DNA of 24,442 bases from a virus. Under the pieces are notes generated by a model. It did not search any database. It was given only the letters and a program-made list of their open reading frames with translations, and was not told where the DNA came from. Of this stretch, positions 1 through 23,348 are shown one piece after another. Both the position numbers and the translations under genes were made by a program. The stretch is taken from IMG/VR virus record IMGVR_UViG_3300010296_000081, positions 1 through 24,442 of that record. The stretch is one strand, 5' to 3'. The first letter of the stretch is position 1; every line of letters begins with the position of its first letter.

Positions 1-603
1 ATCGAGGATGGGTTTACCACTCAGGAATAGATCTCCTATGAAATCCTTACGCCCCGTAATCTGTTGGTCTCCAGAGGTATAGACACCACTTCTTACATAA
101 AGTGCTGTACCAGAAAGGCTACCTGTAATGGGTTCAAGAAACTCTTTGGGTCCCGTTATTGTTTGCTCGCCCGTTAAGTATACTACATCTTTGGGTTGGT
201 AATCAAGGATTGGCTTGCCACTTAGGAATAGATCTCCTACGAAATCCTTGCGACCTGTAATTTCTTGATCACCTTTTGTATAAACACCAAACTCAACGTA
301 TTTTGCCGTTCCAGTTAAATCTCCAGTAATTGCTTGAGAAAAAAGTTTAGGACCCGTTATAGTTTGTTCTCCAGTAGTAAATACTATATTTGATGGTATA
401 TAATTTACAAAATTTTTACCACTAATAAATAAATCACCTACAAAATCTTTCCTTCCATCTATCTCTTGATTGCCCGTTATATAAACTCCATGTTCAACAT
501 ATTTTGCTGTACCAGTCAGATTTCCAGTTATTGCTTTTGCAAATACTTTTGGACCAACGATAGTTTGTTCTCCATGAACCCAAACTACTCTAGGTCTCAA
601 ATA
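1..603 (-). repeat. Three tandem 201-bp coding repeats (67 residues each)
   Basis: Near-identical phase is seen at 1, 202 and 403, for example 'atcgaggatgggtttaccac' at 1 against 'atcaaggattggcttgccac' at 202. The period is exactly 201 bp. The copies differ largely at third codon positions while the protein motifs are kept, so the array is old and held by selection rather than freshly duplicated. It continues off the left edge. Copy boundaries are arbitrary. Confidence 0.85.
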
Positions 604-765
604 ATCTAGAACCCTATCTTTTGCCTCCTCAGCTATGGTTTCCTCAACTACCTCCCACCTTACTTTGTAGTTGTTAATATCTTCTCTAGCTAAAAGAAAA
701 TAATCATTATCCAAGGGTACTCCTGGAATATTTTCTAAATCAGATATTTTCCTATTCTCAGCCAT
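1..765 (-). CDS. Tail fibre protein with 67-residue tandem repeats (partial, C-terminus off the left edge)
   Basis: Open frame from ATG at 765 to the window edge; 255 residues are present and there is no stop. The N-terminus (about residues 5-40, 'KISDLENIPGVPLDNDYFLL') resembles the short N-terminal segment (IxDLxx...GxxLxxxDxxxV) common in phage tail fibres, which is thought to dock them on the virion. From about residue 55 the protein consists of three copies of a 67-residue repeat with the signatures GEQTITGPK.F, AITG.LTGTAKYVE, GDQEITGRKDFVGDLF and SGK. Such T-G-x-Q-T-I-x-G-x-K repeats are typical of trimeric beta-rich fibre shafts. The start abuts a partial copy of the window's recurrent AT-rich motif. 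The gene probably continues with more repeats and a receptor-binding tip. The fibre role is inferred; the repeats are seen directly. Confidence 0.8.
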   Translation of the reverse strand, partial: MAENRKISDLENIPGVPLDNDYFLLAREDINNYKVRWEVVEETIAEEAKDRVLDYLRPRVVWVHGEQTIVGPKVFAKAITGNLTGTAKYVEHGVYITGNQEIDGRKDFVGDLFISGKNFVNYIPSNIVFTTGEQTITGPKLFSQAITGDLTGTAKYVEFGVYTKGDQEITGRKDFVGDLFLSGKPILDYQPKDVVYLTGEQTITGPKEFLEPITGSLSGTALYVRSGVYTSGDQQITGRKDFIGDLFLSGKPILD

Positions 766-2056: not shown

Positions 2057-2070
2057 TTGTGTATATTATA
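2057..2070 (+). promoter_or_regulatory. Exact recurrent motif TTGTGTATATTATA, upstream of the plus-strand pair
   Basis: Exact copy on the plus strand; its last base is next to the ATG at 2071 and 6 bases before the ATG at 2077. If its TATTATA is a -10 element, transcription would start at about 2077, giving a leaderless or nearly leaderless message starting with the second ATG. No Shine-Dalgarno sequence is present. Confidence 0.55.
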
Positions 2071-4308
2071 ATGAATATGGCAGAAAATTCTCAAAATCCA
2101 ATTCCTAGAGTGGTAAAAGGGCACATTGCTGGTAAAATTAGCATTAAAGGAGGAGTCTGGGAAGTGGGTTCTCTAGGTTGGACTGGACCTCAAGACCCCG
2201 TAAGATATCGAGATTTAGTAAACAATCCGTACAAGTATGTAAGAGATGTTTCTAAATATTTTGGAATTGAAGTCGATTTAAATAGATTTACGCCTAATGA
2301 TCATGGAATGTCTATTAATCGAGACTTCGTAAAAGACCCTTTTGCTTCTAGCTCTAATAGCGAATTATCAAGTAAGGAATTCCCCCTTATGAGCTATGAA
2401 GACACGAAAAAAAGATTAGAAGTTATACCTGAACCTACATACCCTTGGCCAGACGACCCAGATTATGAAGTTGATGCGGAAGATTATGAACATTGGTTTG
2501 CTACGTATGGTCAAGTTAGACCTTGGTTTAGTGGTAATATGAACTTTAAAGACTATGCGCCTTTAAGAGAATGTCACTATAGAATTGGGTACAAGCATAA
2601 AGATGGTAACAGACTAAGTCGAAAACTTAAATATTTTTTAACCTGTGAAGAATTACAATATGTAATTGATAAAGACTTAATTAGTGGGGTTTCTGGATAT
2701 GATGTATCCACAATGGGAAATCTTGAGTTGGCTCAATTTGGTCCGTATATGTTTCAAGCTAGGTTAACAGGAGATAGGTCTGATAATTATTTATATGTTA
2801 CTGGTGATATGCATTCTGATCCAGCTGTTATTACTGGTTCCATTACGGGTTACCATGGAAGTGACGACACCAATGCTGTTTATAATCTTAGATTTAATAC
2901 AACTGGTCAAATACCTTATCAGTTTTGGGCTTATGGCATGGATTTATTTCCTGGAACAGATTATAAAATTATTTTTGAAAGTAGTTCTTATTGCATTCAG
3001 GATGGCTCAAATAAAGGTCCTGCGGGACATATGTATCAAATGGTACGTGATGTTCCTGCTGATGAAAATTGGTTTCATAGAGGTGTTTTTTCTTCTGGAA
3101 CTCCAGGTGTAATAACTCAGCCTACTAGAATTCAGATTCAAGAACAGTATGATGGTCTTGAATATTATTTCAATAAATCTGTTGATGCAAATAATACAGA
3201 AGAAGTCGTTTATATTACTGGAGCCAAACCAAAAAAAGTTAATGAAGTTGTATTTTCATCTATTATGAGTATGGATCACTCTTATCCACTACATACATTT
3301 TATGCAAGCGGGAATCAAGGGGATCTAGATGAAAATGGTGTAGATAATTCTTTTTCCGAAGAAAATTATTGGTATGTTGGTGCTCCTAGTGGATATTTAG
3401 GTAATAGATTTCAGCAATACAGAAATGTCAATATACTCGATAATGATACTATTATCGGAATGAGAATTCCCAATCAAAACTATTTAATTAACCAACGTGC
3501 TTTAAGAGAAATAAAAATTTCTGGATGTAAAAATTTTACTGACCTTGTTCTTCCTCAAGCATTAACTAGTGACATAGAACAATTAAAGATAGTTAATTGT
3601 GGATTAAATGTATGGAATGGAGTTCATAGATATCATGATGATTTTGATAAAACAACTTTTCCATATGGATTACAGAGGGAAGTTCCAAGCGGATTGAGAA
3701 GCCCTTTCTATTTTGGTGAAGATTTAGATTCCAAAAGCGAATATTTCTTCAATAGAGGCTTGCTTCCTGTTCCTATAGCTAGTAATCAATTTGTTCACTG
3801 TAATCTTTCTGGAAATGCTTTAAATCAAACAGGATGCTGGCATTTTATACAGGCCTGCATTTTATCAAATTCGACTTATGGATATTTAAATTTAGCTGGC
3901 CAAAAATATTATAATGGTCCAGAAGATGCAGTTTTTTACTCCATGAGGCCTGATATGTATGAAGGTCAAGTAGAATATGATGTAGAAATACCAGATATTA
4001 ATAATGCATGTGTTTCTGGAATAGCAACTTTAATGGATAGACAGTGGCATGTAGTTGTTGATACTCATAGAAAGCCGCATGTTCATTATACCCCACATCT
4101 TACCGACTATGATGGACCTTATGGAAATCAAATCGACGGTTACCCAGAAGGTTACTTGGGAACCGACGACTCTGATTTTTATACAGATGAAACTGTCTGG
4201 ACTGAATTCGTTGATGCTGATGAATCAGGAGAAGGAGATGAATGGATAACTGATCCATGGGGTTATTTCACACCAGGAAGAACTTACCCAGTAGACGAGG
4301 ATTATTAA
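2071..4308 (+). CDS. Putative virion/adhesion protein with LRR-like segments
   Basis: 745 residues from ATG at 2071. An in-frame GTG at 2059 would extend it but lies inside the motif; ATG at 2077 (MAEN..., as in the tail fibre gene) is an equally good start. No family is recognised. The middle holds beta-rich Thr/Gly segments (about 225-290). Residues about 475-625 contain LRR-like lines such as 'LREIKISGCKNFTDLVL', 'IEQLKIVNCGLN' and 'HCNLSGNALN', spaced irregularly. The C-terminal 50 residues are strongly acidic and Tyr/Trp-rich. No signal peptide or membrane segment is visible. It heads a two-gene plus-strand unit, with the next ATG 2 bases after its stop. The setting inside tail genes suggests a fibre-associated or decoration protein; this is inference. 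Confidence 0.6.
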   Translation: MNMAENSQNPIPRVVKGHIAGKISIKGGVWEVGSLGWTGPQDPVRYRDLVNNPYKYVRDVSKYFGIEVDLNRFTPNDHGMSINRDFVKDPFASSSNSELSSKEFPLMSYEDTKKRLEVIPEPTYPWPDDPDYEVDAEDYEHWFATYGQVRPWFSGNMNFKDYAPLRECHYRIGYKHKDGNRLSRKLKYFLTCEELQYVIDKDLISGVSGYDVSTMGNLELAQFGPYMFQARLTGDRSDNYLYVTGDMHSDPAVITGSITGYHGSDDTNAVYNLRFNTTGQIPYQFWAYGMDLFPGTDYKIIFESSSYCIQDGSNKGPAGHMYQMVRDVPADENWFHRGVFSSGTPGVITQPTRIQIQEQYDGLEYYFNKSVDANNTEEVVYITGAKPKKVNEVVFSSIMSMDHSYPLHTFYASGNQGDLDENGVDNSFSEENYWYVGAPSGYLGNRFQQYRNVNILDNDTIIGMRIPNQNYLINQRALREIKISGCKNFTDLVLPQALTSDIEQLKIVNCGLNVWNGVHRYHDDFDKTTFPYGLQREVPSGLRSPFYFGEDLDSKSEYFFNRGLLPVPIASNQFVHCNLSGNALNQTGCWHFIQACILSNSTYGYLNLAGQKYYNGPEDAVFYSMRPDMYEGQVEYDVEIPDINNACVSGIATLMDRQWHVVVDTHRKPHVHYTPHLTDYDGPYGNQIDGYPEGYLGTDDSDFYTDETVWTEFVDADESGEGDEWITDPWGYFTPGRTYPVDEDY

Positions 4309-4310
4309 TT

Positions 4311-5984
4311 ATGGCATTTATAACTGTTGATCATAGTGTTTGGAGAACTCCAAGGTCTGACGAAGAAGGAATTGAGGGGAATAATGCAATAGTAGCACCT
4401 AGAGCTACATGGGTGTATGATGAAACTGATATGGAATTAGTCAAAGAATTCCCAGAATTTTATTCTTTACCCGAAGTTACTAATTACAATTGGAATATAG
4501 AAACATGGAAAAGCAACTTTAAAAGAGCGAAGTTTGAAGAAACTTTTGTTGAGTTTGAATTTCTAAAAAACACAGGAGATTCTCCGATTTTAAAAGTAAA
4601 AAATATTCAACCTGGTGAGGTTGTTACTTTGATGCTTACTGTAATAGTTAGTACCGATACTGGTGAAGGTGATATCAGTTTTAGATCTCTTCAAACTATA
4701 ATAAGGGGTAATCCTATAAATACTACTTTTGATGTAGTTACTGAAGAAAACGGAAGCCCCAAAACAGTAACTGTTTTTGATCAACCTATAGAAACTGCAA
4801 TATATAATGCAAACAAAGGTAAAATGGCAACATTTCCAGATTATGGAACAAGAGTAAGGAGGGCATTTAATGAAAAACCTACTATTAACGACTGGGTAAG
4901 TCAGCATTCTGCTAGGATAGCAAACAATGTAGATTTTTCATCCATAAGCGATACTCAAAATGTTGCAGAAATAGAAGAGGCCACAATAGACAAAACTGGA
5001 AAAACTAATTTTGTCAATAGGAGAATTCAAACTAGAGTCAGTGTTGGATTTACTGTTTTTGAGCAAAATATGTATGCTCATGGAAGATCTATAGATATCA
5101 ATTCAATTAATACTTTATTAGACTCAAATCCTTTGAGTAGAGTCGATAAAGAAACTCCTATTTTAAAACCAAATAGAAGTCATTATGCTGAAGCTATTTT
5201 AAATCGATTAATTCAACCAATTGGATACAATAGATTTATTATGCCGCTAATGATGTCAGCTCTTACGGGACCAGACAGCGGAAATGTAAATATATTTTTC
5301 CCTGGAAGATCTAATCACTCAATAAGTGTTGATAAAACGAGAATGAGATGTACGAAGGGACAAGCTACTGTATGGCACCCAACAGAAGGGGGCGAATATG
5401 AAGATGGTGATCCTTGTGGAGACCACCCTCAACAAACTCCTGTTCCATCAAAATGTACATCTGCTGGACAAGAATGTTGTGACTCAAAAGACATGACTGG
5501 TAATGACTTTTGTGGCTACATGATGGTTGCAGATTGTAATGGGCCAGCAGGCTGCGGTTGTAGTGTTCCTCCACCTAGTCCTCCTCCCCCTGTTCCTCCT
5601 CCTACTCCACCGCCTAATGTTCCACCACCTAATGTTCCACCACCTGCTCCGCCACCGCCTAATCCTCCACCAAATCCGCCTCCCCCTCCATGTCAGCCTT
5701 GGGCGAAAACTTGCAGTCGGTACAGTAAACATATTCCAGGACCTAATGGACTTGGTGGAACAAGTTCGTGGTATTGTAGGAATGCCTGTGGAACGAATTC
5801 GCCTGCTGCAGAAGAATATGTAATGAAAGAAGCAGGTAAAGAATGTGTAGCCCATAATCACCCTAATACCAATTTGGGCGCTTCATATTTTGATTGGACT
5901 TCTCCGTATTGTACTGAGTATGATGTTATATTCAAAAAGGTAGTAACAGGTCACAATTGTAGCGGGGTTGGAAGCTGTAGTTAA
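4311..5984 (+). CDS. Protein of unknown function with Cys-free N-terminal part and Cys-rich/polyproline C-terminal part
   Basis: 557 residues from ATG at 4311, 2 bases after the preceding stop; the frame is open further upstream, but that would overlap the previous gene by 54 bases. Residues 1-346 have no cysteine and look like an ordinary mixed alpha/beta virion protein. Residues 347-557 hold 17 cysteines, including CC and CGC clusters, split by a 41-residue segment (420-460) with 31 prolines in PPP/PPPP blocks separated by S, V, T, N or A. This looks like two small Cys-stabilised modules joined by a rigid polyproline II rod. Disulfides or metal binding are possible; neither is proven, and no signal peptide is visible. 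Function unknown; a virion or adhesion protein is likely from context. Its stop overlaps the stop of the convergent 1492-residue gene. Confidence 0.65.
   Translation: MAFITVDHSVWRTPRSDEEGIEGNNAIVAPRATWVYDETDMELVKEFPEFYSLPEVTNYNWNIETWKSNFKRAKFEETFVEFEFLKNTGDSPILKVKNIQPGEVVTLMLTVIVSTDTGEGDISFRSLQTIIRGNPINTTFDVVTEENGSPKTVTVFDQPIETAIYNANKGKMATFPDYGTRVRRAFNEKPTINDWVSQHSARIANNVDFSSISDTQNVAEIEEATIDKTGKTNFVNRRIQTRVSVGFTVFEQNMYAHGRSIDINSINTLLDSNPLSRVDKETPILKPNRSHYAEAILNRLIQPIGYNRFIMPLMMSALTGPDSGNVNIFFPGRSNHSISVDKTRMRCTKGQATVWHPTEGGEYEDGDPCGDHPQQTPVPSKCTSAGQECCDSKDMTGNDFCGYMMVADCNGPAGCGCSVPPPSPPPPVPPPTPPPNVPPPNVPPPAPPPPNPPPNPPPPPCQPWAKTCSRYSKHIPGPNGLGGTSSWYCRNACGTNSPAAEEYVMKEAGKECVAHNHPNTNLGASYFDWTSPYCTEYDVIFKKVVTGHNCSGVGSCS
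5981..5984. other. TTAA palindrome serving as stop codon for both convergent genes
   Basis: TAA at 5982-5984 ends the plus-strand gene and TAA at 5983-5981 ends the minus-strand gene. There is no intergenic space here, so any terminator must lie inside a coding sequence. No obvious GC-rich hairpin with a T-run was seen at the junction. Confidence 0.9.
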
Positions 5985-10692: not shown

Positions 10693-13600
10693 TTACCAAG
10701 ATGCATCTGCAGTGTTTTTCGTATAACTGCCCTGTCTATATAAATCTATCCTGAATCTTATGCTGGTATTACTTCCCACGGATGTTGGTTTAGCAACTAG
10801 ATATGAATCTTTGTTTGCTCCTGGTTCTATTTTATTTGTATTACTCAAGGTTGTATAATAACCAGCTTTTGTAGCCGTGAAGTTTCCATATTTATTTTCA
10901 GGCCCCAATATACTTGGCACAGCTGCTTGAGGATCGTTTTTAGTAAACCTAACAGTGGCATTGTCCACATCAGTCTCTAGATATATACCTGAAACAAAGT
11001 ATCCTATAGGACTATTTGATATTATTGTATATAAATCATTTAAAACGGGTAATCTAATATCTCCATGTATGCAAGTAATAACTTGATTTGCTATACCCCA
11101 AGCACTTTTTGGGTCTGTTCTAAAATTAGATATCCATCCACCCATGTGTTCTCCCTGAAGAAGGAATCCTTTACCATATGTATTAGGGTCTGGCGGATCG
11201 TAATTTGAGGGATGTCTGGTAGTTTCATATATTGCATTATCTTTAGAGCTGCTCGCTAAACCAGTTACTGTTAAATATTGATTTTCACCTGCCCATCCAA
11301 AAAGTTTTCCAGCTTCATTTACCACAGAAAAATGCCCTTCTGAATTTATATACCAACCAACCCTATATGGATTTGTACTTGCATTATGCGCTCCAGCAGC
11401 TACAGTTTGTAAATTGTTGCTAGTTCTTGGTACATCATAATCAGGGTGAGATGTTGATAACCAGTCTGGATCCATGATCAAACTGCCCACTCTTCCGTAT
11501 CTTCCAGTGATTGTTCCTTTTACAAATGCATTTTGAGCCCACATAGAGCCTTGTTTGTCTACATAAAATGGATCCGTGTTTTTAGGAGCTCTATTTCTAT
11601 TACTATATCCATAAGATCCTATGCTGATTTCTCCATCATCCCAAACTTTTAACCAAGGTTCGCTTGATGTTCCTTTACCTATCATCATTTTGACCCCACT
11701 AATGTTTCCTCCTCTAACTACAAGATCGCTTAGTATTGTTTCTCCATCAGCGCCCAAATAAAAACTCTTTGTAGTACCATCCCAAACGCTTTGATAGTTT
11801 ATAGAACGCATTGCGCTGCTGTTTATAAGTATACCATTTGTATCTTTAGTTACTGATGTAACATTTCCATATGGGTCTCTATTTACCCGAGACCCAAATC
11901 TTATACCATCTCCAACATCTACATTGCCAGATATGCCAACATCACCTATGATGTAAGCATCCTTAGTTTTAAGAGTTCCTTTCCGAGATACAAAAAATGG
12001 GTGATTCTTGCTTGGAGCTGTTGCAGCTGTACTTAAAGATCCATTTGTAGTCCATTTGGCTCCTGCATAATCTCCTAAACTTATATCTCCATTGGAAAAT
12101 GCTTTAAACCATGGGTTGTCTCTGGAACCTCTTCCAATCAATAGATTTGCGCCACTTATCCAGCCTCCAGTTACGGCTAAATTATGTAAAATTGCTTTAC
12201 CATTTTGTGTTAACTGGAACCCTTTGTCGGATCCATGCTGAAAATTAGTAGACTGCAATCCAAATCTATTGATTAAAATTCCATCTTCATCTGTAGCACT
12301 AATTACTCTTCCGAATCTGTCTCTAGTAACATGGCTACCAAATCTCATTCCATCTCCAACATCTACTCTACCAGAAATATTCAAATCTCCTCTAAATTCA
12401 GCATCTTGAGCAAATAAATTTCCTTCTCTGGAAACATAGAATGGGTTATTGTGATAAACTAAGCTTCTTCCTATAGATATATCACCTTTACTTGTTACCC
12501 TAAAAAATGCATTATCGTAACATCCATTTCCTATAATTAATCCCATGGACCCGCTAAGTAAACCCGAACGAATGTCAATACTTTTAAAGTATGCTGTTCC
12601 ATCACCTACAATCTTCCAACCTCGAGCATCTTCTGTTGGGTCACAAGGATTAAAATCATCATCAAAATTATAACTTTGAATTACACTACTGTAACTATTG
12701 TAAGTGTCTCCTAGAACAATTGTTTGTCCAACTTCTAGTGCATCTGCTTTTGCAGTTCCTAAAATTTTTGCATCTGCAGCGAATAAAGACCCGTCTTTAG
12801 TGACTTTAAATTTAGCATCATGTATTCTCCAGTAATCTCTAACGGCTGGTACATTATTTGAATCCCAATCTCTTGATCCTGTGGTAGTAACTCCACTTAA
12901 TCCGTATGCATTTCCAAATAAATTATAAAAATCAAAACCGTTGTATTCTAAACCAGGAAGTTCAAGTTTCAATATACCATTACTTTGGTTAAATGATTCT
13001 ACTTGAGCTATCTCCCAGCCATAATAAAGAGGACCTCTTTTCCAGTTTGTTTCTAGATATACTCCTGGCCTTATAGCCGCTTTTTCTATGGCAGTTAAAT
13101 GATCAGTTTCAATTTGTACAAATACAGAAGAATATTGATCATCGTAATCGTATCCCTCATATTTTTCCCCAAAAACACCACTAACACCAAGCTCTCCCTT
13201 AAAGAACCCAGAGATTTCTTTTGTTTGGTTTCCGATTGTTAAGTTTCCTTCTGAGTCAACATTAAAAGCCGAAGTTCTACTTGCTCCAATTTCAATAGTT
13301 CCAGCAGTTAAATTTCCTCTAATCTCTAAAGTGTTTGGGTCTATATCTATGGCATGAAAACCATCTGGGTCTTTTGAGAATGTAGGTTTTGTAAAATCTG
13401 AATCAGAATATTCTTTATGACCAGTCCAGAATAATCCGTACCCTCCTGGAGAAGGGTCACCTATTCTGAACATTTTATGGTCTAAGTATACACCCTTTCC
13501 TATTGAATATGCATATTGTGGAGTTTCTACAGCTCTTGTAAATACATTATCACTCAAAACTCTTCCGCTTGGGTGTGATAATATAAAATCTGCTGCAGTT

Positions 13601-16600
13601 ATTCTATCAGTTAAAATTCTGCTTGCATATATATTAGATATGTAATCTGCACTAATAGCTCCTCCAGTTACATATCCTTGAGTGTGAGGAGTTTGTCCGA
13701 ATGCTAAATTAGCTTCGTTTGAAAATATAGTTTTAGCTTTATTGACTGGATAGTAATTATGGACATCCCTAGATATTCCAGACACAAACTGCTTACTCAA
13801 ATTTTCTGACTTATCTATAGTTCTTAGAAAATAAAAATAATATATACTTTCTCCATTAATACCTGTTTCTACATCATTATCAATATATGATGTCGATGCT
13901 GAAAGTTTGTATGTATATAATTCTGGATTATTAAAGAAATAACCGCTAATATGAGACATCTTCCAGCAGTTAGTGTTTGGGTTTGCTAAAGTAGGCTCAA
14001 CAGAATCTTCTTTTACTATACCTGTCGGTATTCCTGTCTTATAAACCAATATACTATCAGTATCTTTTGATATGCCTTGATCCCAATCCCATTCCAAGAA
14101 TATTTGCTTTGGTCCTGAAATTATATTAAAGTTATTTGGAATTTTTGGGAGAGTTGAATCTTTTGGAGTTTTTATTGGATTATCGTAAGACAAAGTCCAC
14201 TGGCTTTGCTTTCCGTCATGCTCATTGATTCTTGCTCTTAAATAATATGTTTGATTAGCTTCTAAATTACTAAAGATTCCGCTTCCAATATTCCTGCCAG
14301 GATATCTTACCTTTAAATCATCATCATCGTCACTATATTGTACAGGAATTTCTTGTGTTCCTATTAATGGGTTAAAGCTTGGTCTTTTTGATAGTTGTAT
14401 AGTATAAGATAAATGTTGCCTATTGAGCGGATCATCATTTATTAAATAATTTATAAATGCATAAGATGTTCCATCACCCCCATCGTCATTAATTATTCCA
14501 GTAGTGCATCTTACTTCGTCTCTAAATAAAGCTTCTGTTCTTCCTACATCCACTAATCTTCTTTCGCTTATCTTTCCTTTATTGTTCGATGTGTCTTCAG
14601 CTTGAAGCCAAAAATAAAATTTCTTACCCGCATTTGCAGAAAAATCTTTTAATGGAATTATATCCGAAATTGCTATCGTCGATTGATGAATAGCAACCTT
14701 TTTTTGGTCTGAAAAAGAGTATCCATCTTCTGAAACTGTAGCTATATCAGTTCCAGTATATAAATGTATATGCTCTAAATCATGGTCACCTGGATTTTCC
14801 CAGCTTAAAAATATATTATTTCCATTTTTTTGAGAAGAAATCCAAGTTGGTGTACCAGGTGGGATGTTATCTGGAGCAGCATATATATAGTCCTCATATC
14901 CAGGTTTTATATCATAATATTTATTTGTCAGTATTGTATCATCAGCCCAATTTGATTGAAAAATATCAAAAACAGATTTGACTCTTACTTCATAATAACT
15001 ATCTCCTTTAGCTTCAAAAATATAATGCCCCGAACCTTCTCCAAGAACCCCAGGGTTATGAAAGGCTTTAGTTGAATCTCTTTGACCCAATAAAGTCATC
15101 TCCTCAACATTCTGATACTCCGTGAAATAATATCTAAAAGAATCGTCGTTTTGTTCCTGTCCTGAATAAAATACATGTATTACAGACCTGCCATCTGATG
15201 TTATTTCTCCACTGGTATGAACTACTGGACCATCTAAATTAACATATTCAAATGATGTATCCACATACATTCCTGTATTATTAGAGCTATCTACGGCCAA
15301 TGCATGAAAATACCATTTTGTGTTTTCGTATGATTCTGAACCAGGTTTATTAAATTTATCTATTGCAAAAGAGGGTGCATCATCAGGAAGAACTGAAGCA
15401 AAGGGACTCGAGTAATCTATTGGGAGATCCTCTATTTTTGTGGTTGACTGTTCTTCTTCTACTGTAAAATCAAAATTTTCTTTACCAATTCCAGTATAGA
15501 GTAAAACTTTTACTACATCATTTTCTTTAGGTTCATCCCAAGAGAATCTAAAATTCGACCACTCTTTACTGACCCTGAATCTTTCTAATTTTCCTGGAGG
15601 TTTGGAATCTCTTGGTACATAAACATGATCTGATACAACATCATAAATTTCATTGCTTAAAATTGTATCAGTAGCCCAATCAGTTTCATTTTTACTTAAA
15701 ACTATTCTAGTTTTTACATCGTAAAATGTATTTCCATTTGCCTCAAATACAAAATGCCCTGATCCTCCATAAGTATCGCTATCATTATAAGCAGCTTTGT
15801 CCTTCCCTTGGAAGGTCTTAATATCGAAAGAATTAATATCTTTATATTCGGTAAGATAGTATTGAAAAGTACTATCATCTTGAGCTACTCCAGAGTAAAA
15901 AACATGAACTAATCCTTGACCTGCTTCATTTACTGTTCCACTAGTGTGTAGAACAGGAGGAGACATGTCCACCGTTTTAAATTCTGCATCTGTATAAACT
16001 CCTGTATTATCAGAAGTATCTACTGGAAGAATGTGAAATGGATATGTAGTTGCAGCATTTTTGTACTGTATTACATCGTCAAATCTAGATATAGGAAATA
16101 CTGGTCTATCGTCTTTATTTACCGAAGCAATTAATCCATTTTTATTTTTTGCAATTTCGATGATTTTATTTTGATCTACAGTAACTTCTCCAAAATTATC
16201 TTTACCTACTCCAGTATAAAGTAGGACTCTATTACAATCCGCCTCTGGAGGAGGATCCCAGGAAAATTCAAAGTCAGAAAACTGTTTTCTAATTTCAAAG
16301 TTTTTAATTTTTAGTGGAGCAAAATTATCTTTACCTATTTTTGCAGTAGAAGTTGCCACTAAGGATTCTCTGTTTTCTGATGTGAAAGCCGATAATTTTC
16401 CGAAATATTCTGTGTTGGCTGTTACTTCTCTTATTTCAAGATGACCAGATGCACCAGCTTCATATTGTGCTGGTGCAGTTTTTATATCTTCCTGAAAAAT
16501 ATTTATTGAGTGATTGGACACTCCAAAGGTTTCATCATTAATTTTTAGAAAATATTTTTTAAAACTTTTGTCGTTGTGAAATTGTCCTGAGTAAAATGCA

Positions 16601-19600
16601 TGAAGTATTGGAGACTGCCTATATGTATCAGTTCCTTTACCTTCTTCTCTTATTTCTCCAGAAAGATATAAGTCTGGAGCTACAGCCACATCAAATAAAC
16701 TAATTAAATTACTATTTCTTGGATCACTAAAATTTCCTGCTACATCAAATGCTCTTATATGGAACATAGCATTCGTTCCTATACCTAAAGGATTTCCATT
16801 TAAATCAGCAAAAGACCCTCTACTTGTATCTGCTTCATAAACGGTATGGGATGCATATTTACCTACAACTTCTGTAAAGGAAGATCCTATTTTAGGTAAT
16901 CTGTATTCGTTGTAACCCCCAGCCCCTTCTTCTCCTAAATTTGTATTTTCAAATTCTGGAACTTCTCCTCCTACCCATCCAGTATATAATCTAAATCCTA
17001 TTAAATCTAACTCTCTATCTGGAGATTCATTTTCCCATCTAAAGCTTAAGTTATTCGGAAATAATGGGTTTAGAGATACATTAAAGTGGTCGGGTGGGTC
17101 GGGAGGTATTAAGTCAGGCTCTCCCCTGAAAAACATTACTTTTTCCTCTGATCTTCCAAAATCGTTAGCCTCAGACCATCTCAATTCGTAATAACCGTTT
17201 GAATCAGGGAGTTCAAATTCTCCAGATACCGCACCAGTTACTCTAGCTTCATATGCATCTGCATCAAATATTGCACAACCATCTATTGCTAAATCATCAA
17301 ATTCAGATTCATATCTCGGGTGAGCAACTTCAAGAAATGGAGTAAATTTAGAATCTTTATAGTTTGGCAGACTAACTGTTAAATTATTACTTCCTCCAAC
17401 TCTAGCTTTGTCTCGATCTGCACCCAAACTAAGATCCCATAAAATCTTATTTGATCCACATTTTTGTTTGAGACCAGGAACCTTCCATTCATTATTTTGT
17501 AATAAATTTGTATCATTGTTACCCATTTTTGTCACCACGAGACTTCTGTAGTACTCTTCAGTGATTCTTTGCACTCGCATGAAGTAATTTCCAAAATTTG
17601 TTACATCTGGATTATAGTAATCTTCATTCTCCTCTAAATTATGTATGAAGTAATTTGCTCTCGATCTAGTAACCCCTTCTGAATTTACATATCCAGTCGC
17701 AGCAATTATAACTTCAATAGTATTTTTTTCTGGAGCTCCTAAGTTTTGTACTTGAGTATTATCGTCGGGATCGTCATCAAATTGAGGTAAAGGTCCACCT
17801 CCAGCTGATGGTCTATTTGCTGGAGTCGGGTCGTATGGAACTGTCCTGGCTGTATATATTGTTGATAAAGAGTCAGTTTGGCTAAATTTTTCCCTATTAT
17901 ATTCCATTGCAATCATAGAATATGTTCCATCCTGATTTTCTGTTTTACCTAACAATTGATATTCTTTAGAATCAAAAGCTTCTGTAGACCCATCAGCTTC
18001 TTCTCCATGCAATATATACAAGGCTCCTTCCTTTAGTTTAGTTGATACTGATTTTCTTTCATCTCCTCTAGGCATTCCAGCTAAAACATTTGTAGCAAGA
18101 AAATAATCATTGAATGTTTTGTATCCAGCTGAAGAACTTATAAAGCTTATTTCTTTTGGAATTCTTTGAATTAAATCTTCGTTTTGATGAGTTAATATTT
18201 TAGTTCCAGATGTAGTTACTTCAAAATAATTGTTTAAATTTGTATTTGCAGATGTTTCTGAGTTTATTGGAATTATTTCAGCATCTCTTTGCCCTCCATC
18301 GGACGCACCTTGATGCTGTCCGTTTCTATGTATAAATTCAATATAATGTTCAGATTCATTTAGATTAACATCTTCATCAGGGATTAAAAAGCTTATGCTT
18401 GTGTATTTTTTTGTTAAATCTAATTTTTGATCTATAAAAACATAATTTTTACTAGGGGTAGGATTATCATCGACCACTTCTAATACTCTCCCCCCTACTT
18501 TAAATCCATTTCTTAACTCATCATATATTGTAAAAATGTGCCCTGGTTCTATATGTTCTGCTTGACTGTCTGTTGTAAAACTTACAGTTTCTTCCTCGAG
18601 TACTGAAGTTAATAAAATCCACCTAGCAGTCCTTAATGCTTGATCTCGAGAAGTACAGCCGACAGCCGTTACTTCTTTTAGATTCCAGCCGTATCTTGTG
18701 ATGCCTTCGGGATCTTCTACGTATTCGTATTTAGTTAAAAATGAATCTTCTTTATCCTTGTAAGCTACTTTTACAGCTGTAAATTTTGACTGCCTTGGAG
18801 CTCCTGCATAACTAAAATTTCCTTCTAATACAGAATCATTGCTGAATTTAAATATTGAATTTTTAAGAGCATTCATGGAGATAAAAATCTCCAAATTATT
18901 GAAATATGCTATACCTCTAAAAATCGAACAAATCTCATTTACAGTTTTGTATGCATCTGCTGGATTTTGAAGCAAAAGGTTGCAACTAAATCTCCGCTCT
19001 TTTTTAAATGAGTTGTCAACTGGTATTGATGTTGGAACTAGTTCGTCGCAATATTTGGCAATTTTAAATAATTCCCATTTGTCTAAATTAACATCTCTTA
19101 TGTATTCTCCTAAACCATAAATATCATTGGTCAATATATCGTACAAAATCCAAGCTGGATTATCGGTCCATTCTAATTCTTCTTTAAATGTCCCATCCCA
19201 AACTCCTTCGTGTCTTTCTTCGCTTGTATGCGAACTACCCTTTGACCCATAACTACTTGTATATGCCCTTAAATTTGTTGGCCCTTTTTCATTCTCCAAT
19301 TTTTCAACATAATTACTGGGAACCTTTACCCTTTTTAGTTTCATGTCAAAAGACCTAGTTGGAGCATTTCCAAAGTTCTCTGCATTAACTAATGATGCAA
19401 TCATAGCAGAGCCTGGGTAATTAAAGTTCCTGTCTACTATTTCTGTAACTGAGTCAAGTGTTACTGAAAATTTACTTTTAAAATTGTATGACTGAGCTGT
19501 TACATTTCTTATGTAAATCTGTCTTGGTCTAGGTCCAGAGAGATCTTTCGGGTCAATTAATTTCAACCAAATATCTTCTTTGTATTGAGATAAAGATAAG

Positions 19601-20337
19601 CCTTGAATATCAACAAGAACATTGTAGTCGTTTAACCCATCAGGTATAATTTCTTCGATCACGCCATCATCTAGGCTTCGATGTGTAATGCCAGTTATGT
19701 CTCCCCATATCATAACTTTACCTTTATTGGGCTGTTGCTCTCCAGCTTTATCTATGGTGTAACATTGATCTACATTTAATGTAACCCCAAGCCAGTCAAC
19801 ATCTTCATCCATTACTGAGTGTGTTGTTTGACTAGTTATTCTTTTTCCCTGGCCATCGTCATTCTCTTCTAGTTCAACTTGATTTCCTAACGGAACATTT
19901 TTTCCTATAGTTTGAGATGCATAAGAAAAATCTTCTAACCAATAAAAGTTGTCATCTTCAGTTTCTCCACTTTCTCCCTGGTTGACATAAAAAGGAGTTT
20001 GATCTAGCTCTCCTCTTTTCCATGCTACTGATATATTTCTAAAATTATAAATTCCAGCTTGAGAGGTGTCTGATGTTGTTAATTGTACGGGTGTATCGTT
20101 TAGATAAATCCCCTTTAATATTCCAGCCCCCTGAACTAAACCTCCAGTTGCATCACAAAACCCTTCAATTGGGCCTTCAGATACAACATCCAGCATTTTC
20201 ATAAATGCTGTGGATTGTAGTTTTTCTTTATCTTCTTTAGATACAGCTAGAAATTTTCCACCAAAACCGTCTCCAGTTATTGTTCTTCTGAACAATCTGG
20301 GTGTAGTATTAGAAGCGTAACATACTAGGTTATACAT
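10693..20337 (-). CDS. J: Lambda J-like central tail-tip / host-specificity protein, giant form
   Basis: 3214 residues, against about 1130 in lambda. It forms the tip and central fibre that contacts the host. N-terminal J signatures: 'FMKMLDVVSEGPIEGF' near residue 46, and 'NPAWILYDILTNDIYGLG' with a following A.YCDELV near 385-430. A Phage-tail_3-like hub region follows (about 497-605, ending in 'HIEPGHIFTIYDE'). Residues about 1080-2200 are fibronectin-III-like domains, including three related 240-residue units ('VFYSG', 'LLYTGIGK', 'FHALAVDSSNNTG'). The C-terminal 1000 residues are a repetitive Gly/Asp beta-structured shaft with three repeats (about 2576-2955: PWFK, GDISIG, PFYV, VDVGDG.RFGS, GILIN). 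The last 70 residues ('GNFTATKAGYYTT') look like a small C1q-like beta head, a weak call. The start is 7 bases after the I stop. The large fibre region suggests an extended, possibly modular host-recognition spike. Confidence 0.92.
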   Translation of the reverse strand: MYNLVCYASNTTPRLFRRTITGDGFGGKFLAVSKEDKEKLQSTAFMKMLDVVSEGPIEGFCDATGGLVQGAGILKGIYLNDTPVQLTTSDTSQAGIYNFRNISVAWKRGELDQTPFYVNQGESGETEDDNFYWLEDFSYASQTIGKNVPLGNQVELEENDDGQGKRITSQTTHSVMDEDVDWLGVTLNVDQCYTIDKAGEQQPNKGKVMIWGDITGITHRSLDDGVIEEIIPDGLNDYNVLVDIQGLSLSQYKEDIWLKLIDPKDLSGPRPRQIYIRNVTAQSYNFKSKFSVTLDSVTEIVDRNFNYPGSAMIASLVNAENFGNAPTRSFDMKLKRVKVPSNYVEKLENEKGPTNLRAYTSSYGSKGSSHTSEERHEGVWDGTFKEELEWTDNPAWILYDILTNDIYGLGEYIRDVNLDKWELFKIAKYCDELVPTSIPVDNSFKKERRFSCNLLLQNPADAYKTVNEICSIFRGIAYFNNLEIFISMNALKNSIFKFSNDSVLEGNFSYAGAPRQSKFTAVKVAYKDKEDSFLTKYEYVEDPEGITRYGWNLKEVTAVGCTSRDQALRTARWILLTSVLEEETVSFTTDSQAEHIEPGHIFTIYDELRNGFKVGGRVLEVVDDNPTPSKNYVFIDQKLDLTKKYTSISFLIPDEDVNLNESEHYIEFIHRNGQHQGASDGGQRDAEIIPINSETSANTNLNNYFEVTTSGTKILTHQNEDLIQRIPKEISFISSSAGYKTFNDYFLATNVLAGMPRGDERKSVSTKLKEGALYILHGEEADGSTEAFDSKEYQLLGKTENQDGTYSMIAMEYNREKFSQTDSLSTIYTARTVPYDPTPANRPSAGGGPLPQFDDDPDDNTQVQNLGAPEKNTIEVIIAATGYVNSEGVTRSRANYFIHNLEENEDYYNPDVTNFGNYFMRVQRITEEYYRSLVVTKMGNNDTNLLQNNEWKVPGLKQKCGSNKILWDLSLGADRDKARVGGSNNLTVSLPNYKDSKFTPFLEVAHPRYESEFDDLAIDGCAIFDADAYEARVTGAVSGEFELPDSNGYYELRWSEANDFGRSEEKVMFFRGEPDLIPPDPPDHFNVSLNPLFPNNLSFRWENESPDRELDLIGFRLYTGWVGGEVPEFENTNLGEEGAGGYNEYRLPKIGSSFTEVVGKYASHTVYEADTSRGSFADLNGNPLGIGTNAMFHIRAFDVAGNFSDPRNSNLISLFDVAVAPDLYLSGEIREEGKGTDTYRQSPILHAFYSGQFHNDKSFKKYFLKINDETFGVSNHSINIFQEDIKTAPAQYEAGASGHLEIREVTANTEYFGKLSAFTSENRESLVATSTAKIGKDNFAPLKIKNFEIRKQFSDFEFSWDPPPEADCNRVLLYTGVGKDNFGEVTVDQNKIIEIAKNKNGLIASVNKDDRPVFPISRFDDVIQYKNAATTYPFHILPVDTSDNTGVYTDAEFKTVDMSPPVLHTSGTVNEAGQGLVHVFYSGVAQDDSTFQYYLTEYKDINSFDIKTFQGKDKAAYNDSDTYGGSGHFVFEANGNTFYDVKTRIVLSKNETDWATDTILSNEIYDVVSDHVYVPRDSKPPGKLERFRVSKEWSNFRFSWDEPKENDVVKVLLYTGIGKENFDFTVEEEQSTTKIEDLPIDYSSPFASVLPDDAPSFAIDKFNKPGSESYENTKWYFHALAVDSSNNTGMYVDTSFEYVNLDGPVVHTSGEITSDGRSVIHVFYSGQEQNDDSFRYYFTEYQNVEEMTLLGQRDSTKAFHNPGVLGEGSGHYIFEAKGDSYYEVRVKSVFDIFQSNWADDTILTNKYYDIKPGYEDYIYAAPDNIPPGTPTWISSQKNGNNIFLSWENPGDHDLEHIHLYTGTDIATVSEDGYSFSDQKKVAIHQSTIAISDIIPLKDFSANAGKKFYFWLQAEDTSNNKGKISERRLVDVGRTEALFRDEVRCTTGIINDDGGDGTSYAFINYLINDDPLNRQHLSYTIQLSKRPSFNPLIGTQEIPVQYSDDDDDLKVRYPGRNIGSGIFSNLEANQTYYLRARINEHDGKQSQWTLSYDNPIKTPKDSTLPKIPNNFNIISGPKQIFLEWDWDQGISKDTDSILVYKTGIPTGIVKEDSVEPTLANPNTNCWKMSHISGYFFNNPELYTYKLSASTSYIDNDVETGINGESIYYFYFLRTIDKSENLSKQFVSGISRDVHNYYPVNKAKTIFSNEANLAFGQTPHTQGYVTGGAISADYISNIYASRILTDRITAADFILSHPSGRVLSDNVFTRAVETPQYAYSIGKGVYLDHKMFRIGDPSPGGYGLFWTGHKEYSDSDFTKPTFSKDPDGFHAIDIDPNTLEIRGNLTAGTIEIGASRTSAFNVDSEGNLTIGNQTKEISGFFKGELGVSGVFGEKYEGYDYDDQYSSVFVQIETDHLTAIEKAAIRPGVYLETNWKRGPLYYGWEIAQVESFNQSNGILKLELPGLEYNGFDFYNLFGNAYGLSGVTTTGSRDWDSNNVPAVRDYWRIHDAKFKVTKDGSLFAADAKILGTAKADALEVGQTIVLGDTYNSYSSVIQSYNFDDDFNPCDPTEDARGWKIVGDGTAYFKSIDIRSGLLSGSMGLIIGNGCYDNAFFRVTSKGDISIGRSLVYHNNPFYVSREGNLFAQDAEFRGDLNISGRVDVGDGMRFGSHVTRDRFGRVISATDEDGILINRFGLQSTNFQHGSDKGFQLTQNGKAILHNLAVTGGWISGANLLIGRGSRDNPWFKAFSNGDISLGDYAGAKWTTNGSLSTAATAPSKNHPFFVSRKGTLKTKDAYIIGDVGISGNVDVGDGIRFGSRVNRDPYGNVTSVTKDTNGILINSSAMRSINYQSVWDGTTKSFYLGADGETILSDLVVRGGNISGVKMMIGKGTSSEPWLKVWDDGEISIGSYGYSNRNRAPKNTDPFYVDKQGSMWAQNAFVKGTITGRYGRVGSLIMDPDWLSTSHPDYDVPRTSNNLQTVAAGAHNASTNPYRVGWYINSEGHFSVVNEAGKLFGWAGENQYLTVTGLASSSKDNAIYETTRHPSNYDPPDPNTYGKGFLLQGEHMGGWISNFRTDPKSAWGIANQVITCIHGDIRLPVLNDLYTIISNSPIGYFVSGIYLETDVDNATVRFTKNDPQAAVPSILGPENKYGNFTATKAGYYTTLSNTNKIEPGANKDSYLVAKPTSVGSNTSIRFRIDLYRQGSYTKNTADASW
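11480..12615 (-). repeat. C-terminal shaft repeats of the J-like protein (about 130-150 residues, three copies)
   Basis: Copies start near residues 2576, 2706 and 2857 of J; the third is truncated. Shared line: a Gly start, DG, GG.ISG, IG.G, PWFK, G(D/E)ISIG, PF(Y/F)V, DA, ISG.VDVGDG.RFGS, RD..G.V.S.T and GILIN. The match is at protein level; the DNA copies have diverged. Boundaries are approximate. Confidence 0.7.
14510..16680 (-). repeat. Three related units of about 240 residues in the FN3 region of the J-like protein
   Basis: Units start near residues 1223, 1460 and 1701 of J with LYLSGEI, LHTSGTV and VHTSGEI, followed by an HVFYSG-type strand, 'Y(Y/F)(L/F)TEY', a Gly-His strand ('SGH.(V/I)FEA') and then a fibronectin-III-like domain with an (H/L)LYTG strand. 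Each unit is therefore a two-domain pair. Boundaries are approximate. Confidence 0.65.
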
Positions 20338-20344
20338 AATTTAC

Positions 20345-21043
20345 TTAACTTTCAGTATACTGATCAACAATGACCGCTCCTTCCAGAGATCCATCTGGCT
20401 TCTTTATTGTTGCATTTAAGTAATCAAATGCATTTAATCTGCAATTCATTACGGATGATGATATTACAGTGCTACCAACTCTTAATCTTCCATAACCAAC
20501 TGGGACTCTAGCTCCTTGTGTTATATTATTTATGGGTCTGGAAAAAGTAAATGATGATGTGCTTTTCATCTTAGGAGCACTATCTTCCATTTCTGGTGGA
20601 TCAGGCTCCTTCACTAGTTTATCCATTAATCCTTGCATTAATACAGCCCCACCTATTTCGAATAATAAATTTCCACCCCAGCTTAATAGTCCTCCCCAAA
20701 ATCCACCTATGCTTGATCCTAAAGCACCCGCACCCCAGCCTCCAAACATTCCCAAAAGTCCACCAAGTATCATTCCTATTCCACCCTGTGGGACCATAAA
20801 AAAGTGAATATTTTCGGCTTCTTTATTCACTTGAATTTTTAATTCATCTTGACTTCTTAATGGTTTCTTATCAACGAAAACCATATATTTAGTTTGCTCT
20901 TGACTCTTTTTTAGTAAATACCCAAGGAATCCTTCTTTGTTCGCATCAATAGCTTTAATAGCTTCAAGCGGACTACTTATATCAAGTTTCCATTCTTTGC
21001 CAAATTTCTGACCCAATTTACCATGTAAAAAAACATTTACCAT
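20345..21043 (-). CDS. I: Lambda I-like tail assembly protein
   Basis: 232 residues, between K and J as in lambda. Residues 1-85 look like the ubiquitin-like N-terminal domain of the family ('VFLHGKLGQKFGKEWKLDI', a helix, then 'MVFVDKKPL'). Residues 87-137 are a Gly-rich hydrophobic stretch ('GGLLGMFGGWGAGALGSSIG') that may insert in a membrane or pack in the tip. After an acidic Pro linker comes the conserved 'SRPINNITQGARVPVGYGRL' motif at about 167-186, with an S/I strand behind it. Lambda gpI is needed for tip assembly together with K and J but is not clearly part of the mature virion. The start ATG at 21043 has AAGG about 8 bases upstream, and the exact 14-base motif lies at 21061-21074. 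Confidence 0.88.
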   Translation of the reverse strand: MVNVFLHGKLGQKFGKEWKLDISSPLEAIKAIDANKEGFLGYLLKKSQEQTKYMVFVDKKPLRSQDELKIQVNKEAENIHFFMVPQGGIGMILGGLLGMFGGWGAGALGSSIGGFWGGLLSWGGNLLFEIGGAVLMQGLMDKLVKEPDPPEMEDSAPKMKSTSSFTFSRPINNITQGARVPVGYGRLRVGSTVISSSVMNCRLNAFDYLNATIKKPDGSLEGAVIVDQYTES

Positions 21044-21059
21044 AACAACCTTAAACCTA

Positions 21060-21443
21060 TTATAATATACACAACTTAACCTTGCTTTCTGTTAGTAATT
21101 TCAGATTCTTATACATTCTAAGCTTTTGTGGATAATGTATTTTATATTTTTTTGTTACTGTACTATATATGTATAAAGGCATAAGCATTTCTTCTGAATA
21201 TTTTATATCATAATCGGAAGGGGATTCATCACCTAAAACGTGAGAATGATAACACATTAATATTTTGTATTTTTTAAATGCATTTACATAATCAAATGGA
21301 TCAATTTTGAAATATCTAGCCTTATCTTCCGCTTTATTTTCACATTGTTTAACAAAAAATTTTTTTTGTTTATATAGCAAAAATCCACAACTTTCTTCCT
21401 GTGGGAGATTTTCGCATATTTCTGCTATTTGTTTATGAATCAT
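21060..21443 (-). CDS. K: Lambda K-like tail assembly protein: JAMM/MPN domain only
   Basis: 127 residues from ATG at 21443, which comes one base after the L stop; an in-frame ATG at 21494 would overlap the L coding end by 50 bases and adds residues unlike the family. The JAMM/MPN+ metal site is complete: Glu17 in ESCG, then HSH (His66, His68), seven residues, Ser76 and Asp79, fitting HxHx7SxxD. The domain is expected to be a Zn-dependent isopeptidase or endopeptidase. Lambda gpK adds a C-terminal NlpC/P60 peptidoglycan hydrolase domain; that is absent here, and the last 40 residues are basic with no catalytic Cys-His pair visible. The gene lies between L and I as in lambda. The 3' end overlaps the regulatory motif before I. 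Confidence 0.87.
   Translation of the reverse strand: MIHKQIAEICENLPQEESCGFLLYKQKKFFVKQCENKAEDKARYFKIDPFDYVNAFKKYKILMCYHSHVLGDESPSDYDIKYSEEMLMPLYIYSTVTKKYKIHYPQKLRMYKNLKLLTESKVKLCIL
21061..21074 (-). promoter_or_regulatory. Exact recurrent motif TTGTGTATATTATA before the I-like gene
   Basis: Exact minus-strand copy that overlaps the last codons and stop of the K-like gene and ends 17 bases before the I start at 21043. This spacing suits a promoter with a short leader that holds an AAGG site. It would drive I, J and the genes below independently of L and K. Confidence 0.55.
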
Positions 21444-21444
21444 A

Positions 21445-22359
21445 TTAAAACAATCTACTACCTGGAAAGCCTCCGTATGGTAAGAAGTCCGCATCTGGAA
21501 ATCTTAATTTACATCCAGATATTTTTTTATTACAAGCATCCCTAGCCCAATACTCAGTATTTATTGATGGCTTGTTTTTTGAGCTAGATGTGTGAGCAAC
21601 TATACAATAGTATACTACATTTCTTGGGCTACTTTCTATACCCTGATCGTCCACTTGAATAGTTACAACATCTTTTAATTTATAATCTACCCCAGCTTCC
21701 CAAAGCCCCTTGTTTGTGATTCCATCTATAACAAATCCTACATTATTAGAATCAGATATTGGCCCTCCATTATAGCCGCATCCTTTACCTCTATATTTCC
21801 ACCAGCAATAATTATTTAATATAACTCTTCTTGGAACTGAAACATTTTCAAAATCAAGAGCATTTGATAATTCAAATTCTACAAAAAATTTATTTTCTGT
21901 AAGTTTTTGGTTAATTATCCACTTGTCTGGTCTCAATGTAGCATTTGGATCAGGATCTATACCCATAGATTTCCAGTGATCTATGTCTGCATCATAGTTT
22001 AAAAAATTTTCTTTATCTAAAAATCTTACAAAAGTTTTAGTTCTAGTTATTTCGGCTTTAACCAAGTCGTCCTTGTCTTTTATATATCTTGATAATATGC
22101 CTTGAAAATTAATTAATTTAATTGTAGGTCTAGATAAGCCTCCGTCTGATCTTGTGCTAAGGTCAGAGACCTCAAAAGGTAGATAAAAGTATTCCTTGTT
22201 ATTGAACTTAAGGCTATCTGTTACATTAATTACCCCACCATGAAACCTGATTACATCTTCACTATTTCCAATTCTTGAAATTTCCCATAGATCAATCATT
22301 GAAGTTTGGTTGTTTGAAAAAATTTCTTGATTTATATGTTCTCCTTTATAAAATGCCAT
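21445..22359 (-). CDS. L: Lambda L-like tail-tip protein with Fe-S site and inserted CBM5/12-like module
   Basis: 304 residues. The N-terminal part follows the gpL family ('IDLWEISRI', 'IRFHGGVINV', then a strand-rich region), and the end 'FLPYGGFPG' is its hallmark. Lambda gpL binds a [4Fe-4S] cluster with four C-terminal cysteines spaced Cx8C and Cx6C. Here Cys185-x8-Cys194 and Cys276-x6-Cys283 keep both spacings exactly, so an Fe-S site is strongly predicted. Between the pairs are 81 residues instead of about 22. The extra segment (about 205-273; GLWEAGVDYKLKDVV, 'YYCIVAHTSSSKNKP', then EYWA) has the layout of a family 5/12 carbohydrate-binding module. The stop TAA is one base before the preferred K start, so L and K are translationally close. 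Confidence 0.9.
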   Translation of the reverse strand: MAFYKGEHINQEIFSNNQTSMIDLWEISRIGNSEDVIRFHGGVINVTDSLKFNNKEYFYLPFEVSDLSTRSDGGLSRPTIKLINFQGILSRYIKDKDDLVKAEITRTKTFVRFLDKENFLNYDADIDHWKSMGIDPDPNATLRPDKWIINQKLTENKFFVEFELSNALDFENVSVPRRVILNNYCWWKYRGKGCGYNGGPISDSNNVGFVIDGITNKGLWEAGVDYKLKDVVTIQVDDQGIESSPRNVVYYCIVAHTSSSKNKPSINTEYWARDACNKKISGCKLRFPDADFLPYGGFPGSRLF

Positions 22360-22382: not shown

Positions 22383-23348
22383 TTAAATATTAAAATTTTT
22401 TTTAATTTTCTCTTCTTTTAAGTTCAACTGCAAAGTGTTTGTATCTTTGTATACATAGTCGTGTTTAATTGATGTGCATGTAAATTTTGATGTTCTTAAC
22501 TCTGGTTTAATTGTGTTAAATGTAAATGTCTCAATCCCTTGTCTACCAATAATTAAGCATAAAATTTTATATGCATCTAGATCTGTCATTTTTTCATAAG
22601 TAATACTTATTTCGTCTGTTCTACTAAATGTACCATCTTTACTATACTCTGACCTAGAGTTACCCAACGAGTAATCTTTTGTGTGAAAAGTTGAATTACT
22701 ATTAACACTATATGAGGGCAATATATCTAAATGTTTTTTATAAAAATACTCTTGAAAAATATTTTTTCTCTTTTCTGACATTGAATTAGCAAACAATAAA
22801 TATTTTAAGGTTAGCATCGAAAAGTCTTGATTATAGAAATTAGCTGTTATTGAATTTAAATCTCTGTAACTTTCTGTTAAAGAAAATTGAAAGCATTTAA
22901 ATTCTTGAACGAAATAAGGATCTAATGAAATTAAAGACTTAAATTTTTCATCATCATTAAGCTCGCTGTATTCATGTTTTTGCATTACAAAAACATCATT
23001 TTCATTTTCCTCTAGAAATTTTATAATTTCGTTTGCATCTTTATCGCTCCTGTCGTTAAAATTTACATCAAAAGACATTGCTACTCTATTTAGAAGAGCT
23101 GGTTTAGAGCTTACATATTTGTTTCCGTATTCAATTTCGTTATTTTCGAATTGCACAGTAACTGATGATCCGTATGATGGAACAAAATTAAATGGTTTAT
23201 AGTATTTAAATTCTTTTAATTCAGAATCAATCTTTGAATTAGCGATAAAATCTGCATAAGATGTATAGTTTGAATTATCTTGACTTCTGAAAAATTTCTT
23301 TTGGGTTTCAAAATTTCCCCAAACATGTCTTGGATCAAAAACATTCAT
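22383..23348 (-). CDS. Lambda M-like minor tail protein with two tandem M-like domains
   Basis: 321 residues, against about 110 in lambda gpM, next to L as expected. Two halves look alike. The first (about 56-175) has 'NRVAMSFDVNFNDRSDKDA', a helix with FLEE, then FKCFQFSLTES and NSITANF. The second (about 210-312) has RTDEISITYEKMTDLDA, a helix ending in GRQG, then 'FTCTSIKHDYVYKD' and 'NTLQLNLKEE'. The second half, with FTFNT before the Cys strand, is the better match to the Phage_min_tail (gpM) pattern. gpM-like proteins form a ring between tube and tip, and a fused pair would change ring stoichiometry (inference). The start overlaps the upstream stop as ATGA. Confidence 0.68.
   Translation of the reverse strand: MNVFDPRHVWGNFETQKKFFRSQDNSNYTSYADFIANSKIDSELKEFKYYKPFNFVPSYGSSVTVQFENNEIEYGNKYVSSKPALLNRVAMSFDVNFNDRSDKDANEIIKFLEENENDVFVMQKHEYSELNDDEKFKSLISLDPYFVQEFKCFQFSLTESYRDLNSITANFYNQDFSMLTLKYLLFANSMSEKRKNIFQEYFYKKHLDILPSYSVNSNSTFHTKDYSLGNSRSEYSKDGTFSRTDEISITYEKMTDLDAYKILCLIIGRQGIETFTFNTIKPELRTSKFTCTSIKHDYVYKDTNTLQLNLKEEKIKKNFNI

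Follow-up and report, generated by a model that had tools for sequence, protein, structure and literature searches.

A module with a predicted CBM5/12 fold between the Fe-S ligand pairs of a lambda gpL homologue from uncultured phages

Introduction

What occupies the loop between the iron-sulfur (Fe-S) ligand pairs of a lambda gpL-like tail-tip protein, and could it bind sugars? The question is raised by a 304-residue open reading frame (ORF) in the viral IMG/VR record IMGVR_UViG_3300010296_000081, a stretch of 24,442 bases that is referred to as a whole as the window. A first-pass annotation of this DNA had proposed that a carbohydrate-binding module (CBM) of family 5/12 type is inserted at 21535-21750, within the Fe-S domain of the protein. 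These coordinates are correct and correspond to residues 204-275. Based on structural models, we conclude that the insert is a folded small beta-sandwich module with a predicted CBM5/12 (chitin-binding-domain) fold.

A single insert between the Fe-S ligand pairs

The ORF product is clearly a homologue of lambda gpL. It matched Pfam Phage_tail_L (PF05100) with an E value of 9.8e-41 and 139.8 bits (curated cut-off, 25), NCBIfam TIGR01600 with an E value of 2.7e-46 and 157.6 bits (cut-off, 70.75) and phrog_18 of PHROGs with an E value of 3e-57. The top solved match of its whole-protein AlphaFold model in Foldseek was lambda gpL (8iyk_L; E = 9.4e-15), so that PF05100, TIGR01600 and Foldseek agree with the first-pass annotation on a lambda L-like tail-tip protein. 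Its features are as follows.

21445..22359, minus strand: gpL-like tail-tip protein (hub domain I and Fe-S domain), 304 residues; Pfam, NCBIfam and Foldseek
21865..22332, minus strand: hub domain I, residues about 10-165; PF05100 and TIGR01600 alignment, with an AlphaFold predicted local distance difference test (pLDDT) mostly >80
21778..21807, minus strand: first predicted Fe-S ligand pair, C185-x8-C194, equivalent to lambda C173 and C182
21541..21717, minus strand: predicted CBM5/12-fold module, residues about 215-273; Pfam CBM_5_12 (below the cut-off), AlphaFold and Foldseek
21511..21534, minus strand: second predicted Fe-S ligand pair, C276-x6-C283, equivalent to lambda C205 and C212

In lambda, hub domain I is the scaffold packing in the last tail ring, and C173, C182, C205 and C212 surround the cluster density in the cryo-electron microscopy structure (PMC10721106). 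Lambda gpL (PF05100, TIGR01600; PDB 8iyk and 8k35) shares with the window protein this scaffold, the four cysteines with their Cx8C and Cx6C spacing and the gene order M-L-K-I-J. It differs in the stretch between the pairs: the lambda cysteines are spaced x8, x22 and x6 with no domain in between, whereas C185, C194, C276 and C283 of the window protein are spaced x8, x81 and x6, exactly as had been noticed at first. Both pairs are invariant across the aligned L relatives. Alignment with eight other L sequences, including lambda, SSU5 and KBS-S-2A, one of the eight being itself insert bearing, was a check proposed by the first-pass annotation, and it resolved the difference into a single, cleanly delimited insert of about 59 residues that separates the pairs. 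In good agreement with this, PF05100 matched related contigs in two pieces that flank the insert and abut at profile position ~170.

The insert does carry the layout first seen in it, W-x5-Y-x3-D-x-V ... YYC-x3-HTSS ... P ... W. Its landmarks are G218-x-W220-x5-Y226-x3-D230-x-V232 ... Y250-x-C252-x3-H256-T257 ... P264 ... W271. Written as a loose regular expression, the layout matched one of 200,000 shuffles of the insert, a figure that is indicative only, the pattern having been written post hoc. We also weighed an intein and discarded the idea in view of the small size of the insert and its match to a CBM fold, with no formal search for splicing motifs.

The insert is predicted to adopt a CBM5/12 fold

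In the whole-protein AlphaFold model, built on a 39-sequence alignment, residues 211-270 formed a block with pLDDT values of 84-97. The insert was thus predicted as a folded unit of its own rather than as a disordered loop, with CBM5/12 modules as its closest solved folds, and Foldseek on this model retrieved the CBM of a Vibrio cholerae chitin deacetylase with a probability of 1.00 over 56 columns. A separate model of the module, built from 22 inserts, had a mean pLDDT of 78 and four strands of at least three residues. The best PDB matches of the isolated module were again V. cholerae chitin deacetylase CBMs (4nyu and 4ny2; probability, 1.00). It also matched the V. campbellii deacetylase, the GH18 chitinase 4tx8 (1.9 A over 60 columns, 25% identity) and the chitin-binding domain of ChiA1, 1ED7 (TM score of 0.77 by target length; probability, 0.96), the probabilities for PDB CBMs being mostly 0.96-1.00. 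Many phage tail proteins in the BFVD viral library matched the module as well, and several of them are named ChiA1-BD, ChiC_BD or CBM 5/12.

At the sequence level, 15 of the 22 related inserts matched Pfam CBM_5_12 (PF02839), with a best E value of 2.2e-5, and any other Pfam family was matched by at most one. A phmmer search of the insert against the PDB returned no match. The insert profile retrieved 1ED7 and the chitin deacetylases from the PDB at E values of about 1, mixed with antibodies, and because of this mixture we relied on the fold search only. Searched alone against cultured phages, the insert gave only seven weak matches (E of at least 0.2), mostly to actinophage tail proteins, which we did not take as homology.

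Distribution and conservation of the insert

Relatives were gathered by IMG/VR scans with narrow alignments, since the diverse nine-sequence alignment had no stretch conserved enough. These scans recovered more than 20 distinct insert-bearing L proteins, 46-100% identical to the window protein and with ligand pairs that lie 77, 78 or 81 residues apart. L relatives at ~37% identity and below mostly had 21 or 22. Across 22 inserts, with identities down to ~33%, G218, W220, Y226, R246, P264 and W271 were invariant, which at the sequence level is a stronger argument against chance than the shuffle test.

A sister lineage (loci L264-L276), 31-33% identical, encodes gpL proteins of 352-368 residues (e.g., L264:517-1620 and L276:1456-2529) with 121-137 residues between the ligand pairs. 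Its insert exceeds that of the clade of the window by some 50-65 residues, the extra part having no Pfam match. The C-terminal part resembles the motif (YNPGDFVKYI ... SFYVCIK-HG ... NP ... YWVKDSC). The insert profile found this lineage weakly (best score, 18 bits, in L266), and a Pfam scan of the sister inserts found no CBM. On a tree computed from the scaffold only, all insert-bearing rows fell on one side of a branch with a support of 100/98, and the short inserts alone were set apart with a support of 100/100. This is consistent with the insert having arisen once; the seeds came from this clade, and a separate gain elsewhere is possible.

The insert-bearing clade belongs to uncultured aquatic phages of bacteria, with the core of the module conserved. 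One insert-bearing member, L095 (JAQXAG010000048.1), comes from a contig of 61 kb that was binned as Candidatus Neomarinimicrobiota; this hints at a possible host group and may also be a binning effect. L genes were present in 18 of the 399 genomes covered from one bacterial phylum, and none of these 18 had an insert at the Fe-S loop. In two of them, about 190 extra residues were found at another site. This stretch, present in the gpL homologues G402:C33:216002-217171 and G102:C102:52848-54038 (loci L151, L152, L160 and L161), sits at PF05100 position ~93, in hub domain I, and represents a second insertion site. Among 1,311 matches in cultured phages, we inspected the best 60 and a spread of 60, none of which had an aligned stretch long enough for the insert; many of these alignments end before its position.

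Known domains at the same loop and known relatives of the fold

The first-pass annotation knew of no sugar-binding module between the gpL cluster ligands. This view has to be revised, since two hub proteins of the DUF2163/BR0599 type precede the window protein. As described in the passages on these hubs, RcGTA gp13 (6TBA/6TEH) has ion-binding segments at 143-167 and 250-263 with an "oligosaccharide-binding" domain at 168-249 between them (PMC7296036), and the hub of roseophage R4C (8GTC) has ion-binding segments at 142-161 and 244-266 with a domain of the same name at 162-243 (PMC10276861). The R4C sequence reads C147-x9-C157-x86-C244-x6-C251. According to the same passages, the RcGTA domain was named for its fold similarity to the sugar-binding domain of LKA1 gp49 (PMC7296036), and they report no binding test of the domain for either hub (PMC7296036, PMC10276861). 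Both hubs share with the window gpL a domain between the Fe-S ligand pairs, but they differ in having no significant overall sequence match to it. When the L family was compared with the R4C hub by hhalign, only the second cysteine pair aligned (probability, 9). PF09356 (BR0599) was absent from the Pfam matches of the window protein, and the best 50 Foldseek matches of the isolated insert contained chitin-binding domains and no solved DUF2163-type hub. The upper baseplate protein gp50 of JBD30 (PDB 8rk3) is described with Cys147, 156, 238 and 245 (PMC11445458). In this description it shares the x8, x81, x6 spacing and folded protein between the pairs, whereas its domain II is presented there as a beta-sandwich that includes a helix and is given no role involving sugars (PMC11445458).

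The novelty of the window protein is therefore the CBM5/12-like fold at the Fe-S loop, a sugar-binding-type domain being already known there. We found no description of a CBM5/12-fold module at this loop in the open-access literature searched. Compared with CBM5/12 proper (PF02839; 1ED7 and 4nyu), the insert shares the fold in Foldseek, the equivalents of the ChiA1 core and those of H681, T682 and P689; it differs in its Pfam score, in the missing W687 and in having no enzyme attached. The same small fold is found in other tail proteins. Foldseek matches of the isolated module included Anabaena Cis13 (All3316, 7b5h_AE) and the tail fibre of cyanophage A-1(L) (8kec_a), besides the many phage fibres in BFVD, and domain D2 of CBA120 TSP1, which lies in the virion-attachment part, matches 1ED7, with a significance that its authors state to be unknown (PMC3966878). 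Unlike the window protein, none of the named tail-protein matches is annotated as gpL, and as far as we searched, insertion between Fe-S ligands is particular to the clade of the window.

Ligand residues and possible role of the module

We compared the insert with ChiA1, whose exposed Trp687 is the main ligand contact and whose core comprises W656, Y662, V668, Y675, C677 and W696 (PMC3701571); H681, T682, P689 and P693 have also been proposed as ligand residues (PMC2265269). In the profile alignment, the core residues correspond to W220, Y226, V232, Y250, C252 and W271 of the insert, and H681, T682 and P689 correspond to H256, T257 and P264, which are kept in 16, 16 and all 22 of the 22 inserts, respectively. 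The motif layout thus mainly reflects the core of the fold and is by itself no demonstration of sugar binding. Sugar binding by the modelled module is plausible, but binding to crystalline chitin in the manner of ChiA1 is unlikely because the exposed tryptophan is missing. Divergence is faster in the insert than elsewhere in the protein: the mean pairwise identity was 41%, compared to 58%, and it was lower in 170 of 171 pairs. This would fit an exposed, host-facing decoration and equally any peripheral domain.

On balance, we lean toward an accessory adhesive role of the CBM5/12-fold module toward an envelope glycan. The gpL loop between the ligand pairs would have been replaced by a small beta-sandwich module of the chitin-binding-domain fold, with the scaffold and the four cysteines kept. 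The lambda tip contains three gpL copies, with the Fe-S domain on the outer surface of the cone (PMC10721106); by analogy, three modules would project outward near the host surface, each with both ends clamped by the Fe-S site. Through weak, multivalent binding to a polysaccharide of the host envelope (capsule, lipopolysaccharide or peptidoglycan), the modules may then help to keep the tip in place or in the right orientation for DNA release. Several observations weigh against this proposal. The window insert scored 23.7 bits against CBM_5_12 (E = 5e-5), above noise and under the curated cut-off of 26.2. It is not a formal member of PF02839; the initial call of a CBM5/12-like module stands for the fold, as modelled by AlphaFold and matched by Foldseek. 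The Foldseek E values to PDB CBMs, 0.06-0.35, were all above 0.05, which is often seen with a module of 60 residues. W687 is replaced by N262 in the window and by N, T, L, K or F in relatives (Trp in 0 of 22), and P693 is not kept. The outer-surface position is carried over from lambda, and the chitin-binding-like fold of CBA120 TSP1, of unknown significance, lies in a part that attaches to the virion (PMC3966878).

The main rival to adhesion, possible although we hold it to be the less probable of the two, is an architectural role, in which the chitin-binding fold would be reused, with no sugar ligand, as a docking part or spacer between gpL and gpJ or a side fibre. Conserved residues that map to the fold core, the loss of the ligand tryptophan and the occurrence of the same fold in structural parts of tails (Anabaena Cis13, the A-1(L) fibre and CBA120 TSP1 D2 [PMC3966878]) speak for it. 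The outer-surface position of the lambda Fe-S domain (PMC10721106), the fast divergence expected of an exposed part and the retention in most inserts of H256, T257 and P264, which match ChiA1 ligand residues, speak for exposure and binding instead. A true binder of chitin or a chitin-like glycan, using the ChiA1 surface for chitinase-like attachment to particles or the host, would agree with CBMs of chitin-active enzymes being the closest solved folds and with the H681, T682 and P689 equivalents of the window insert; given the absent tryptophan, we regard it as very unlikely. Highly improbable, too, is a function of the three modules as glycan sensors, in which sugar binding would strain the ligand-joining loop and couple host contact to tip opening and DNA release. 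If true, this would give a signalling role to the gpL Fe-S cluster, whose role is still open (PMC10721106).

The origin of the insert raises a further alternative, compatible with either role: instead of being newly acquired, it may derive by modification from an ancestral domain that lambda lost and that is homologous to the one in RcGTA, R4C and JBD30. The site is the same, the length is similar (81 residues here, 86 in R4C and 81 in JBD30), and PF09356 (BR0599) weakly matched the C-terminal Fe-S half in several relatives (E values of 0.008-0.27). However, the fold search placed chitin-binding domains, and not solved DUF2163-type hubs, among its best 50 matches, and the nearest L relatives found outside the insert-bearing clade have no domain there. 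We thus consider shared descent unlikely. A lone Pfam match below the cut-off would permit a chance resemblance, or a disordered or misassembled segment. Such an explanation is scarcely credible in view of the high pLDDT, the consistent CBM_5_12 matches and the invariant core residues. Misassembly was rejected, since the identical gene is present in two further IMG/VR contigs (34 and 80 kb) and homologous inserts occur in the more than 20 conserved relatives.

Together, the clade of the window, its sister lineage, RcGTA, R4C and JBD30 suggest that insertions at the tail tip recur in the loop that joins the two ligand pairs. They form a natural series, from no insert through an oligosaccharide-binding-type to a CBM5/12-type domain, and with it one may ask if the cluster clamps decorations without disturbing the hub. 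For uncultured aquatic phages, the module would add a candidate adhesive element for host contact.

Neighboring genes

Pfam and PHROG matches of the neighbors gave the gene order M-L-K-I-J, with the following genes around gpL.

22383..23348, minus strand: gpM-like minor tail protein; Phage_min_tail, E = 9.5e-11
21060..21442, minus strand: gpK-like gene, JAB metallopeptidase half only; Prok-JAB, E = 1.9e-8
20345..21043, minus strand: gpI-like tail assembly protein; phrog_32, E = 5.8e-32
10693..20337, minus strand: gpJ-like central hub/fibre protein, 3214 residues; Phage-tail_3, E = 2.4e-13

For the gpK-like gene, the ATG at 21442 is a likelier start than the listed ORF start at 21494 because of the overlap of the latter with gpL. 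The protein had no Pfam match to NlpC/P60, and the window copy seems to lack the C40 (NlpC/P60) peptidase half that lambda gpK has. The gene is short throughout the clade, with products of 122-144 residues (window 21060-21494, minus strand; L018:3894-4271; L020:3903-4277; L022:628-996). The gpJ-like protein also matched FNIII-A_GpJ below the threshold (E = 0.059).

At the edge of the window, a protein truncated by the window end (positions 1-765, minus strand) contains three repeats of the BppL_N type (PF18338; E = 5e-21). Two large genes lie beside the tail genes on the opposite strand, at 2059-4308 and 4257-5984 (both plus strand). The product of the former had no match in Pfam or PHROG, and that of the latter has at its end a proline-rich stretch and, after it, a cysteine-rich segment.
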